The notes under the pieces: generated by a model | Seen by the model: only the letters and a program-made list of their open reading frames with translations | Database searches by the model: none | Told to the model about the DNA's origin: nothing | Shown here: positions 38,275 through 41,806 of the stretch, one piece after another | Position numbering within the stretch: the stretch's first letter is position 1 | How the letters are laid out: each line of letters opens with the position of its first letter | Position numbers and translations under genes: made by a program | DNA from: Paludibacter sp. | Lineage (GTDB): Bacteria; Bacteroidota; Bacteroidia; Bacteroidales; Paludibacteraceae | Length of the DNA stretch: 49,751 bases | Direction: 5' to 3' | NCBI GenBank assembly: GCA_013426815.1 | Contig: JACDZH010000004.1 | Span: 1 to 49,751, forward strand

Positions 38275-39333
38275 TTATTTCATTATTTCCATTTGATGTC
38301 TTATGGATTCTTCGTGAATGGCAACCAAAACGGTTTTCATAAACTCTCCATCCATGTCCATTTGTTTAGCTTGGACTATGCGGTTTTGAAGAATTTCGTC
38401 ATATCGCTGTTCTTGCAAAATAGGCATATTGTGCTCTTTTTTATAAATGCCGATTTCATTTGATTTTCGCATCCGTCGCGCCAATAATTCAAGTAAACTA
38501 TTGTCTAATTCATCTATCTGACGGCGTAAAGCTGTCAGATTTTCGGTACTTTGGGTGATATCGCGGATAACGATGGTATTAAGAATAAAGTCCAGCACTT
38601 CCGGAGTAATTTGCTGAGCCGCATCGCTCCATGCTTTATCGGGGTGGCAATGCGATTCAATTATTAATCCATCGAAATTCAAATCCATGGCATGCTGACA
38701 AAGTGGTGCAATTAATTCTCGTTTTCCACCTATATGACTTGGATCACAAATAATTGGTAAATTTGGAATTTGACGATGTAATTCGATTGGAATGTGCCAT
38801 TGTGGTAGATTGCGGTATATTTTTTTATCTGAAGTACTGAAACCACGGTGTATAGCACCAATTCGATGAATGCCTGCATTATAAATCCGCTCGATGGCAC
38901 CAATCCATAAGTCCAAGTCCGGATTTACAGGGTTTTTTATCAATACAGGAATATCTATACCTTCAAGCGCATCAGCTATTTCCTGAACTGCAAAAGGATT
39001 GGCTGAAGTGCGCGCACCAATCCAAAGTATGTCTACATTGTGCGACAGAGCTTCGCGAACATGCTTGGCAGTAGCAACTTCTACGGCAGTATACATTCCC
39101 AATTCTTTTTGAACACGTTTGAGCCATGGTAAACCTTCGGCACCAACTCCCTCGAAACCACCTGGCTTGGTTCGGGGTTTCCAAATTCCGGCACGAAATA
39201 TTTTAATGCCTCGGGATGATAATTCACGGGCTGTTTGCATTACTTGTTCTTCAGTTTCTGCACTACAAGGACCGGCAATGATTAACGGTCGTTTGGCATC
39301 GACTCTGGGTAATAAAATTGATTCGAGTTCCAT
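38275..39333 (-). CDS. Bifunctional DAHP synthase / chorismate mutase
   Basis: A 352-residue fusion. The N-terminal domain (about 1-255) is a KDSA-like DAHP synthase (type I beta) that condenses PEP and erythrose 4-phosphate: RPLIIAGPCSAETEEQVMQTA, FRAGIWKPRTKPGGFEGVG, LWIGARTSANPFAVQ, IKNPVNPDLDLWIG and CDPSHIGGKRELI. The C-terminal domain (about 262-352) is an AroQ chorismate mutase (LTALRRQIDELDNSLLELLARRMRKSNEIGIYKK). The fusion is typical of Bacteroidota, where the mutase domain also mediates prephenate feedback in related enzymes. It is the last gene of the pheA operon, and no tyrA follows. A short GTTTGATG/TTTGAAATG repeat precedes its start. Confidence 0.93.
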   Translation of the reverse strand: MELESILLPRVDAKRPLIIAGPCSAETEEQVMQTARELSSRGIKIFRAGIWKPRTKPGGFEGVGAEGLPWLKRVQKELGMYTAVEVATAKHVREALSHNVDILWIGARTSANPFAVQEIADALEGIDIPVLIKNPVNPDLDLWIGAIERIYNAGIHRIGAIHRGFSTSDKKIYRNLPQWHIPIELHRQIPNLPIICDPSHIGGKRELIAPLCQHAMDLNFDGLIIESHCHPDKAWSDAAQQITPEVLDFILNTIVIRDITQSTENLTALRRQIDELDNSLLELLARRMRKSNEIGIYKKEHNMPILQEQRYDEILQNRIVQAKQMDMDGEFMKTVLVAIHEESIRHQMEIMK

Positions 39334-39433: not shown

Positions 39434-40624
39434 TTACTTTAATCTCTTCAATACTTCTTCAAGTATTGGTTCGGGGCAGCAGAGCGAAATGCGCACATAT
39501 CTGTCGCCTTTATCCCCAAAAATAAATCCAGGAGTAATAAATACGTTTTTACCATACAGAATTTCATCGGCTAATTCACCTGAATTGGAATATTTGTCTG
39601 GAATTTTCGCCCATAAAAATAAGCCAACTTGTTTAGTATCATACTTGCAGTCAAGGATATCCATAATCTGACAGGCCAAAATACGCCGTTTTGTATAAAC
39701 CTTATTCATTGCGGCATGCCATAATTCGGTATTTTTCAGAGCAACCACTGCTGCCATCATCATGGGTCGAAACATACCAGAATCGACATTTGATTTTACA
39801 TTCAATACCCATTCCACGAATTGTTTATTGCTAGCCAACATCGCCATACGCCAACCAGCCATATTGTGCGATTTGCTCATCGAATTCAGTTCGATACAAA
39901 TATCTTTTGCTCCTTCAACAGAGAGAATGCTTAGTTTTCCGTCGTTCAGTATAAAACTGTAAGGATTATCGTTACAAATAACAATATTATGTTTTTTGCC
40001 AAAAGCTACCAATTTCTCAAATAAATCAATTGTTGCGTTTGCACCGGTTGGCATATTGGGATAATTGACCCACATCAACTTAACGTTGCTCAAGTCTTTT
40101 TGTTCTAATGCATCAAAATCGGGATACCAATAGTTTTTTTCATCTAAATCGTACGAAATGATATTTGCCTCGCAAATACGACTAGCCGAACTGTAAGTTG
40201 GATAACCCGGATTGGGTACCAATACACCATCGCCGGGGTTTACAAAAGCCAGCGTGATATGTAAAATTCCTTCTTTTGAACCTATAAGTGGTTGAATTTC
40301 AGTTGCAGGATTCAATTCCACATTGTACCATTTTTTGTACCATTGAGCAAAACCGGTGCGTAATTCGGGAATTCCAACATAACTCTGATAACCGTGAACA
40401 TTTGGTTTTTGTGCTTCAGCACAAAGTGCGGCTATGGTTTCTTCGGAAGGAGGTAAATCGGGATTTCCGATTCCCAGATTGATGACATTTTTGTCGGCAG
40501 CGTTCATTTCCCTCACTTCGCGGAGTTTTGCCGAAAAATAATATTCCGAAACGCTGTTAAGTCTATTGGCGGGTTTTATTTTAATGCCCACATCTCCTAA
40601 AGGGGAGTTAGTTTCGTCTTGCAT
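39434..40624 (-). CDS. PLP-dependent aminotransferase (class I/II), aromatic operon
   Basis: A 396-residue fold-type I aminotransferase. Features are INLGIGNPDLPPSEETIAAL, the NPGYPTYSSASRI loop, MWVNYPNMPTGANAT, ICNDNPYSFIL, and the PLP lysine in ELNSMSKSHNMAGWRMAML. It ends YVRISLCCPEPILEEVLKRL. Its place between pheA and DAHP synthase-chorismate mutase suggests it transaminates phenylpyruvate or prephenate/4-hydroxyphenylpyruvate, though aspartate-type activity is possible. The extreme N-terminus (MQDETNSPLGDVGIKIKPAN) looks added: NSPLGDVG is encoded by a degenerate copy of the GC-rich palindromic element. Confidence 0.88.
   Translation of the reverse strand: MQDETNSPLGDVGIKIKPANRLNSVSEYYFSAKLREVREMNAADKNVINLGIGNPDLPPSEETIAALCAEAQKPNVHGYQSYVGIPELRTGFAQWYKKWYNVELNPATEIQPLIGSKEGILHITLAFVNPGDGVLVPNPGYPTYSSASRICEANIISYDLDEKNYWYPDFDALEQKDLSNVKLMWVNYPNMPTGANATIDLFEKLVAFGKKHNIVICNDNPYSFILNDGKLSILSVEGAKDICIELNSMSKSHNMAGWRMAMLASNKQFVEWVLNVKSNVDSGMFRPMMMAAVVALKNTELWHAAMNKVYTKRRILACQIMDILDCKYDTKQVGLFLWAKIPDKYSNSGELADEILYGKNVFITPGFIFGDKGDRYVRISLCCPEPILEEVLKRLK
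40587..40609. repeat. Degenerate GC-rich palindromic element, copy D, inside a CDS
   Basis: Plus strand CCCACATCTCCTAAAGGGGA then GTT, with dyad CTCC-TAAAG-GGGAG. In the aminotransferase frame it codes for NSPLGDVG near the N-terminus. It resembles copies A-C in pattern, but with several substitutions. Confidence 0.5.
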
Positions 40625-40669: not shown

Positions 40670-41515
40670 TTATTCAGCCGGCGTAATTCCTTCGGGATAT
40701 TCTCCCAAAGTTTTTAACTCATTGATTAATGGTTTAATAGCTGCTAATGATTGTTTGTAACGTTCCAGGTCTTCAAACTTGAAATCGACATAAAACTGGT
40801 ATTCCCATTCGCGACCAATGATGGGCAATGATTGGATTTTTGTAAGATTAATTCCGTAGAACGAAAATACCGACAAAACCTTCGACAAACTTCCTTCGGC
40901 ATGTGGCAAAGTAAAAACGATGGATGCTTTATTAATGGGTTCGTCCTTTTGTATCTCGTCTACTACCCATGTATTTCCAAAAACCAAAAAACGTGTAAAA
41001 TTCCGTTTATTCGTTTCAATACCTTTTGCCAAAATAGTTAATCCGTATATTTCGGCTGCACGTTCGCTGCAAATGGCGGCATTTCCCAGTAAATTGTTCT
41101 GAGCAATATCGCGGGCTGCAAGTGCAGTATCTTCGTGTTCAACTACTTTAATCCCTGGTAATGTTGCCAGAAAATCGGCGCATTGCATCAATGCTATCGG
41201 GTGCGATTGAACTTCTTTGATATCATATATGGTTTGACTGGGCAAAACAGCCAGACAATGTGTTACACGTAGCTTAATTTCGCCGGCAATGGGTAGTTTG
41301 TGTTCTTTGAGCAACTCGTAATTTGGCAATAAACTTCCTGCAATTGTGTTTTCAATTGCCATAATTCCTACCACATTTGAATCCTTTTTTATAGCTTTAA
41401 AAATATCGCGGAAAGTAATACAAGGCATGATTTCTATAGGTTCTCCGTTAAAAAAAATCTCAGCAGCAATGCCGTGATATGCTCCCAATCCTCCCTGAAT
41501 AGCTACTCGTTTCAT
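40670..41515 (-). CDS. pheA: Prephenate dehydratase PheA
   Basis: A 281-residue monofunctional prephenate dehydratase making phenylpyruvate, the last precursor of phenylalanine. The catalytic domain (1-185) shows VAIQGGLGAYHGIAAEIFF, NVVGIMAIENTIAGSLLPNY, GNAAICSERAAEIYGL, and the TRF motif in NKRNFTRFLVFG. A C-terminal ACT domain (about 195-275) begins KASIVFTLPHAEGSLSKVLS. The Phe-binding ESRP motif of E. coli PheA reads QSLP here and GALV reads GSLS, so allosteric control may differ. The gene is first in the operon and lies behind an attenuator leader (41630..41806), which ties its expression to Phe/Tyr supply. Confidence 0.95.
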   Translation of the reverse strand: MKRVAIQGGLGAYHGIAAEIFFNGEPIEIMPCITFRDIFKAIKKDSNVVGIMAIENTIAGSLLPNYELLKEHKLPIAGEIKLRVTHCLAVLPSQTIYDIKEVQSHPIALMQCADFLATLPGIKVVEHEDTALAARDIAQNNLLGNAAICSERAAEIYGLTILAKGIETNKRNFTRFLVFGNTWVVDEIQKDEPINKASIVFTLPHAEGSLSKVLSVFSFYGINLTKIQSLPIIGREWEYQFYVDFKFEDLERYKQSLAAIKPLINELKTLGEYPEGITPAE

Positions 41516-41522
41516 ATTATTT

Positions 41523-41586
41523 TGTGTTTTGCGTTTCGTGTTTTGCGTTTCGTGTTTTGAATTTCGTGTTCTGCGTTCTGTGTTTC
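41523..41586. repeat. 14-bp tandem repeat upstream of pheA
   Basis: About 4.5 units of GTGTTTTGCGTTTC (third and fourth unit diverged, ending GTGTTTCC) on the plus strand. It fills the space between the pheA start and the attenuator terminator. Confidence 0.85.
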
Positions 41587-41629
41587 CTAAGCCACTAGAA
41601 CATTGTCTTGAAGTTTTTTTTGAGGTCTT

Positions 41630-41663
41630 AAAAAAAAATCCTACTCGTTTTGAGCAGGATTTT
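41630..41663 (-). terminator. pheA attenuator: intrinsic terminator (segments 3 and 4)
   Basis: Minus strand AAAATCCTGCTC-AAAAC-GAGTAGGATTTT, a 12-bp stem with one G-U pair, followed by an uninterrupted T run of about 8. Segment 3 (41652..41660, ATCCTGCTC) can instead pair perfectly with segment 2 at 41709..41717. That would prevent this hairpin and let transcription reach pheA. Confidence 0.85.
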
Positions 41664-41708
41664 CATGTATTTTCTATAAATATAGTTTTGTTTTTTTACA
41701 TAAAGGCT

Positions 41709-41717
41709 ATCCTGCTC
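41709..41717 (-). promoter_or_regulatory. pheA attenuator: antiterminator segment 2
   Basis: Minus strand GAGCAGGAT, the exact 9-nt complement of terminator segment 3 (41652..41660). It begins on the base after the leader-peptide stop codon. A ribosome that reaches the stop would cover it and allow the terminator to form. One stalled on the Phe/Tyr codons would leave it free to form the antiterminator. Confidence 0.8.
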
Positions 41718-41771
41718 TTACCTACTAAAGTAAAAGTAAAGACTAAAATATGCAAAAAAACGATTGATCAT
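41718..41771 (-). CDS. pheL: Phenylalanine/tyrosine leader peptide of the pheA operon
   Basis: A 17-codon frame, ATG to TAA, reading MINRFFAYFSLYFYFSR. Five Phe and three Tyr in 17 residues is the hallmark of an amino-acid leader peptide. It lies about 20 bp after the inferred transcription start, and the stop directly precedes antiterminator segment 2. The order promoter, leader peptide, antiterminator, terminator, pheA follows the classical attenuation layout. Low charged Phe-tRNA (or Tyr-tRNA) would stall the ribosome and switch the operon on. No Shine-Dalgarno is seen, which is usual in Bacteroidota. The symbol follows the E. coli analogue; homology is not implied. Confidence 0.85.
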   Translation of the reverse strand: MINRFFAYFSLYFYFSR

Positions 41772-41797
41772 ACCGGATGTGTATTTGTTTTTATGAT

Positions 41798-41806
41798 GCA
41801 AAAGTA
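41798..41806 (-). promoter_or_regulatory. -7 element of the pheA operon promoter
   Basis: Minus strand TACTTTTGC matches TAnnTTTG and places the transcription start near 41790, 20 bp before the leader-peptide ATG. A -33 TTTG is not evident. Between 41807 and 41951 I see nothing else. Confidence 0.65.

Follow-up and report, generated by a model that had tools for sequence, protein, structure and literature searches.

Attenuators of the pheA/trp type of Escherichia coli consist of a protector (1:2), an antiterminator (2:3) and a terminator (3:4), and this kind of control needs a ribosome that follows closely behind RNA polymerase. Bacteroidota are generally described as being without Shine-Dalgarno sequences. 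Amino acid attenuators were reportedly predicted by comparative genomics by Vitreschak et al. in 2004, in a study whose abstract is said to name the Bacteroidetes/Chlorobi, and Lopatovskaya et al. are said to have presented a comparative survey of predicted amino acid attenuators in 2010. An excerpt of a study of Flavobacterium psychrophilum mentions strong clues to leader-peptide attenuation upstream of amino acid operons, together with 5′ structured elements of pheA and hisG that are conserved in the Flavobacteriaceae and have no Rfam match; in the same excerpt Flavobacterium is described as being without Shine-Dalgarno sequences (PMC9723704). Leader-like small ORFs are noted in an excerpt of a work on B. 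thetaiotaomicron (PMC7366714). No description of a Bacteroidales pheA leader was found in the literature searched, from which most subscription journals were missing.

We analyzed a 49,751-nt stretch of DNA of Paludibacter sp. (referred to below as the window), which carries a pheA operon preceded by a short ORF rich in Phe and Tyr codons. As judged from this sequence and its relatives, the operon is very probably controlled by a four-arm ribosome-mediated transcription attenuator of the trp/phe-leader type.

Leader and operon in the window

The leader elements that had been pointed out in an earlier, sequence-only reading of the window were all recovered: a TAnnTTTG promoter box on the minus strand (41806-41799), a 17-codon frame on the same strand (41771 to 41718), a 9-nt segment beginning on the next base after the stop codon (arm A, 41717-41709), an exact complement of this segment (arm B, 41660-41652, the reverse complement of arm A), and a terminator in which arm B pairs with arm C, with one G-U pair, ahead of a T run. 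The proposed gene order (pheA, aminotransferase, DAHP synthase-chorismate mutase) is likewise matched by Pfam domains. The features, in the direction of transcription, are:

41799..41806, minus strand: promoter box TAnnTTTG (TACTTTTG), 27 nt upstream of the leader start, read in the sequence
41718..41771, minus strand: leader ORF MINRFFAYFSLYFYFSR, with ATG at 41771 and TAA ending at 41718
41749..41757, minus strand: arm 1 (TTTTGCATA), protector 5′ arm within the leader ORF near Phe6-Ala7-Tyr8, placed by covariation with arm 2 and by the fold
41709..41717, minus strand: arm A (GAGCAGGAT), antiterminator 5′ arm, placed by the fold and by covariation
41694..41702, minus strand: arm 2 (TATGTAAAA), protector 3′ arm, located 3′ of arm A and placed by covariation with arm 1
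41652..41660, minus strand: arm B (ATCCTGCTC), common to antiterminator and terminator, placed by covariation
41630..41646, minus strand: arm C (GAGTAGGAT, 41646-41638) and T run (to 41630), 3′ half of the intrinsic terminator
40670..41515, minus strand: pheA, prephenate dehydratase (PF00800, 1.6e-52)
39434..40624, minus strand: class I/II aminotransferase (PF00155)
38275..39333, minus strand: DAHP synthase fused to chorismate mutase (PF00793 and PF01817)

Eight of the 17 residues of the leader peptide are Phe or Tyr (codons ATG ATC AAT CGT TTT TTT GCA TAT TTT AGT CTT TAC TTT TAC TTT AGT AGG TAA). Between the terminator and the start of pheA, approximately four tandem copies of a 14-nt repeat (AACACGAAACGCAA-like) are located at 41520-41589 of the minus strand. 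No further copy is present elsewhere in the window (at most three mismatches allowed), and AACACGAAAC strings resembling the repeat occupy the equivalent position in some relatives (L007, L013, L014).

Occurrence of the leader in close relatives

Relatives were screened with a strict detector, which requires (i) a short ORF with at least 30% Phe/Tyr, (ii) an A:B pairing of at least 7 bp, (iii) a B:C terminator and (iv) a stop codon near A. When 109 regions upstream of pheA were dinucleotide-shuffled, it matched none of the 51,012 shuffles, nor did it match any of 539 regions upstream of other genes in the named loci (see below), in which a Phe/Tyr-rich ATG ORF taken alone (at least 6 and at least 35%) was present three times. 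The whole set comprises 96 distinct matches, the first-search and named sets overlapping in some genomes.

The first genome search found pheA in 46 of 60 genomes, the window's own included. It supplied 30 loci, of which 29 had upstream DNA that could be read (in L004 the contig breaks off 50 nt ahead of pheA), and the detector passed 28 of these 29, among them the window's own; the sole miss (L013) has a mismatch in arm A. The other 16 of the 46 pheA genomes gave 11 strict passes, and 14 have a Phe/Tyr ORF. The two that do not are L121, which has no upstream DNA, and L113 of genome G008, with 200 leader-free nucleotides. In G008 an RNA model (see below) places a leader (L232) on another contig (C76), 54 nt short of its end, and this leader and the pheA gene at the start of contig C56 (L113) may be one locus parted by a contig break.

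The named loci are the best 80 of 568 and include Paludibacter, Dysgonomonas, Proteiniphilum, Parabacteroides, Bacteroides and Tannerella. The detector passed 60 of these best 80; inspection by eye of the 20 misses revealed a Phe/Tyr leader in 17, whose arms contain a mismatch or a bulge, and in L073 and L093 the upstream region is cut by contig ends. One locus, L101 (503 nt read upstream of pheA), has the Phe/Tyr codons, located near the promoter box, and the arms, and has no start codon, as a result of either a deletion or an assembly error.

The RNA model was built from 61 aligned leaders, and 150 first-look candidates were scored with it per genome. It gave one match at E < 0.001 in 14 of 20 genomes; these counts have to be read with the fact that the window and, apparently, at least three of the genomes searched (G001, G004, G011) went into the model, so that the matches in these genomes are built in. 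Twelve of the 14 matches are located directly upstream of pheA, in G041 the match is followed by a partial pheA gene at the end of a contig, and the remaining one is the G008 leader described above. Among the genomes that do not match, G010, G036, G038 and G040 had no pheA match in the first genome search, G043 has a weak match (E 0.066) before pheA, and G042 has none before pheA; the loci of both G043 and G042 pass the detector.

The leader of the window contains Tyr as well as Phe codons, although the tyrA gene of this genome is located on a separate contig (G000:C109, L229), apart from the pheA operon. Among the 72 named loci with sufficient DNA downstream, a motif search located a TyrA-like start in 43, no more than 5.8 kb from that of pheA and mostly about 1 kb past the DAHP synthase motif. 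Upstream of tyrA itself the strict detector found no match in seven loci, including that of the window's genome. The Tyr codons may be a relic of an ancestral operon, or may relate to the steps that the two pathways have in common, DAHP synthase and chorismate mutase.

Competing helices, reading frame and model of the switch

The sequence-only reading had described three arms. All three were retained in our analysis, but this layout proved incomplete, since a fourth arm takes part: in the fold of the full window leader TTTTGCATA (41757-41749) pairs with TATGTAAAA (41702-41694), forming helix 1:2, which covaries. Covariation was assessed in 61 aligned leaders against 500 shuffles, and the numbers given are counts of related sequences, not of events. 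The positions of helix 1:2 are paired in 90.5% of cases, with 28 two-sided cells (8.2 in the shuffles), those of A:B in 88.2% (36 cells; 13.1 in the shuffles) and those of B:C in 98.5% (85 cells; 28.2 in the shuffles). For none of the three helices did any of the 500 shuffles reach the observed percentage or the observed number of two-sided cells, and partners slid along the sequence paired in at most 68.1% (1:2), 43.5% (A:B) and 46.3% (B:C). Two other measures were less discriminating. The number of pairs with a two-sided change was reached by 20 (1:2), 310 (A:B) and 458 (B:C) of the 500 shuffles, and the number of further pair types by 2, 450 and 322, respectively. A candidate extension of A:B (TTTATGTA:TACATGAA), which looked good in the window fold, was rejected, as it is 68.9% paired versus 69.5% in the shuffles.

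One pair of helix 1:2 involves a codon for Thr or Ala, and in the 61 leaders it is A-U in 36, G-C in 12, G-U in 7, U-A in 1 and unpaired in 5. The Thr codon ACA is matched with UGU, and the Ala codon GCA with UGC, or with UGU by wobble. In 40 of 60 named leaders, in the window and in all twelve G-C rows, the stop codon lies before or adjoins A. In those leaders the arm-2 partner is located outside the ORF, so that coding alone does not explain the change of this pair. A cruder count of Thr/Ala codons against partner bases, which gave 27 rows without a partner, 26 leaders without ACA or GCA before TA or TT and 3 ACA rows with ATGC, was set aside in favor of the alignment counts because a second downstream ATGC in Bacteroides rows can mis-anchor it. 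An earlier test of 1:2 in 96 leaders had yielded a mean duplex weight of 18.8 versus 13.6 for shuffled partners, with 5.1% of shuffles reaching the observed median.

Helix A:B excludes both 1:2 and B:C. It shares arm B with the terminator, and helix 1:2 crosses it, so the two are mutually exclusive unless a pseudoknot forms, as with a classical protector.

The gaps in the alignment of the 61 leaders bear on the question of whether the ORF is translated. In the ORF body (columns 20-57) 95 gaps are of 3 nt and one is of 6 nt, and after A (columns 79-141) 228 of 294 are of 1-2 nt. The tail of the ORF (columns 58-68) has 60 gaps, of which 45 are not multiples of three, and there the position of the stop codon relative to A shifts between groups; over the 96 matches it ranges from just before A to as much as 30 nt beyond that point. 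The distance from the first base of the last Phe/Tyr codon to A is 12-15 nt in 73 of these 96 distinct matches. Of 88 strict matches, 87 have a TAnnTTTG box in the 60 nt preceding the leader start, compared with 71 of 1600 shuffled 60-nt stretches. Leaders titled Bacteroides (L094, L102 and L104, with L084, L091, L108 and L109 by eye) have an ORF that continues across arm A and ends in a conserved tail of the KVEREFVCVK type.

Direct sensing of phenylalanine, tRNA or a protein by the RNA (as a riboswitch, a T-box or the target of an RNA-binding protein), with the short frame being incidental, is very improbable. A conserved structured leader with a terminator would be compatible with such sensing, and pairings alone do not prove control by a ribosome. 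However, no family of Rfam release 15, the T-box and amino acid riboswitch families included, was found at its gathering score in the whole window, and the gaps in threes, together with a Phe/Tyr content that is kept in dissimilar peptides, point to translation of the frame. Translation would also be expected if the ORF encoded a functional small protein and the terminator were constitutive, keeping pheA expression fixed at a low level. The frame does have the look of a translated one, and across the 61 aligned leaders the peptide shows strong conservation; yet the peptides of other families differ widely while their Phe/Tyr content stays, and A:B, which a fixed terminator would not need, covaries. 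We consider this explanation extremely improbable.

The preferred reading, a switch operated by a ribosome, was modeled by folding the leader with a mask that starts 14 nt upstream of the first base in the P site and extends to 16 nt downstream of it. This is an assumed footprint; in an excerpt of a published study, a ribosome at a stop codon covers up to 12 nt past it (PMC4833913). When the window leader was folded up to B, an A site at any of codons 4-15 gave the middle A:B pair a probability of 1.00; for codons 16-18 this probability was 0.00 and 1:2 was formed. The model thus switches once the ribosome has moved beyond the last Phe codon, at which A:B averaged over the whole arm is 0.76. 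With no ribosome present, 1:2 reached 0.79 and A:B 0.21. Folding of the full-length leader, C included, favors B:C at equilibrium whatever the ribosome state (at least 0.92). The antiterminator must therefore form first and hold, which makes the switch a kinetic one.

Over the 96 leaders, the modeled mean of A:B is 0.94 at Phe/Tyr stalls, 0.80 at the last of them, 0.06 at the stop codon and 0.67 without a ribosome. A:B is kept low at the stop in 89 of the 96, largely by construction of the assumed footprint. The other seven have a stop codon whose end lies over 24 nt beyond the first base of A, so that A remains free at the stop (modeled mean A:B 0.89). For L094, L102 and L104 this distance is 26-27 nt, and simple masking by a ribosome at the stop codon fails in the fold model.

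The following course of events would be consistent with these values. With charged tRNA-Phe and tRNA-Tyr plentiful, the ribosome would reach the stop codon and cover A, the terminator B:C would form and transcription would stop. If charging of tRNA-Phe or tRNA-Tyr were scarce, the ribosome would stall on a Phe or Tyr codon and cover arm 1, leaving A free; A could then capture B before C is made, and transcription would continue into pheA and the aminotransferase and DAHP synthase-chorismate mutase genes behind it. In the absence of any ribosome, 1:2 would fold and trap A, which would favor termination.

This last step separates the four-arm attenuator from a three-arm one, as pictured in the sequence-only reading; an attenuator of that kind would have no working protector, and its default without a ribosome would be read-through. 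The mean no-ribosome A:B of 0.67 over the 96 leaders implies that in the model the protector alone often fails, and in 61 of the 96 the modeled no-ribosome value is not more than 0.2 below the mean at Phe/Tyr stalls, as a three-arm attenuator would have it. Helix 1:2 is nevertheless conserved with two-sided changes, and in the model of the window it is what holds A:B to 0.21 without a ribosome; we therefore regard the lack of a working protector as unlikely. Three results slightly lower the odds of the four-arm reading and of the proposed ancestry (see below) and raise those of the three-arm alternative: the gaps in the tail of the ORF, the measures of covariation in which the shuffles do as well, and the no-ribosome values.

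The central proposal of the sequence-only reading, that the leader is a ribosome-mediated attenuator, is supported by the retained frame and by helices A:B, B:C and 1:2, with an antiterminator that is kinetic in the fold model. Loss of the frame or of the alternative pairing among relatives had been named there as an argument against it. The comparison gave the opposite result: the frame, A:B, B:C and 1:2 are kept with two-sided changes, and gaps in the ORF body are of 3 or 6 nt.

Wider spread and relation to known systems

A sample of the class Bacteroidia comprised 139 genomes (the window's own included), of which 39 have pheA. The 38 pheA regions other than the window's own gave 9 strict passes, and a Phe/Tyr ORF was found in 17 of them, compared with 9 of 1140 shuffles; the other 21 have no such ORF at that threshold. 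Leaders of other families can contain Phe/Tyr peptides and arms that are unlike those of the window, e.g. MKLFNTYYFGYFYYFSKSRG with GCCGGGGCT, AGTCCCGGC and GCCGGGACT. Some strict matches beyond the closest kin look weak (L123 and L124 of the order set; L129, L138, L159 and L163 of the class set). In other classes of the phylum, 20 hand-picked pheA regions contained neither a strict match nor a Phe/Tyr ORF.

A Phe/Tyr attenuator of pheA may be ancestral to the Bacteroidia, a proposal whose chances we judge to be just short of evenly balanced. According to it, the peptides and the arm sequences have drifted, while (i) the codon content, (ii) the geometry, with the last Phe/Tyr codon 12-15 nt before A, and (iii) the three competing helices have been kept, and one Thr/Ala codon serves as a base-pairing position. 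The Bacteroides-type ORF, which extends far past A, would then imply a modified switch, in which termination is not triggered by covering A at the stop codon.

Leaders of comparable appearance were seen at other pathways. Upstream of ilvD in the window's genome (L204, G000:C34) there is a Leu/Val/Ile-rich leader, MTLQHLNIILVHFVLLFVKNQK, with a GTG start; its arms (GTGAGGATGGTT, AACCTTTCTCAC and GAGAAAGGTTTTTT) are of a similar kind, with one A:B mismatch by eye. Branched-chain-rich ORFs precede ilvD in all eight genomes with this gene (11 searched), these being raw observed counts. A terminator is present in seven of the eight, and a relaxed detector passes five, the window's own genome not among them. 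No leader was found before hisG in seven same-genus loci (own included), before trpE in five same-genus loci (the own locus has only 172 nt upstream in its contig), or before thrA in four of the seven same-genus loci. In other families of the same order, a His-rich leader (MKLYTSHHGHHHFLQ) followed by a terminator precedes hisG in L186, and a Trp leader (WWW; MQLFSNIWWWQSLIIFVERSY), also followed by a terminator, precedes trpE in L195.

Among the RNA families of Rfam, Phe_leader (RF01859) scored 25.1 bits in comparison with a gathering score of 55, and Trp_leader (RF00513) had no match in the window's own genome. A plasmid collection gave no match. The pheA RNA motif of Weinberg et al. 2010 (PMC2864571) shares its name and the gene, and in the excerpt of that article it is listed for Actinobacteria, not for Bacteroidota.

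The conserved pheA attenuator argues for coupling of ribosome and RNA polymerase in Bacteroidota, at least on short leaders, and the leader provides a ready reporter for coupling in laboratory Bacteroidales. In such bacteria, synthesis of aromatic amino acids is predicted to respond to Phe and Tyr, via a leader that in the window lies outside the families of Rfam release 15 at their gathering scores. The principle is classical and the arrangement recurs in many relatives; most likely, the switch would permit read-through into the operon only when Phe or Tyr runs short.

The leader of the window shares with the pheA and trp leaders of E. coli a leader peptide rich in the relevant amino acids, a protector, an antiterminator, a terminator and a biosynthetic operon downstream. 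It differs from them in that it mixes Phe and Tyr codons, has a TAnnTTTG promoter, and has an arm A that begins directly after the stop codon or, in other leaders, sits inside the ORF. The pheA element of the Flavobacteriaceae, as described in the excerpt of PMC9723704, comes from the same phylum and precedes the same gene, and neither it nor the window leader has an Rfam match; the comparison is one of descriptions, as that excerpt gives no leader sequence, arms, covariation or tie to a Phe/Tyr peptide. Since leader-peptide attenuation and a structured pheA leader have already been reported for the Flavobacteriaceae, the attenuator of the window, itself well supported, belongs to a known kind, what is new being its arms, their covariation and its spread.
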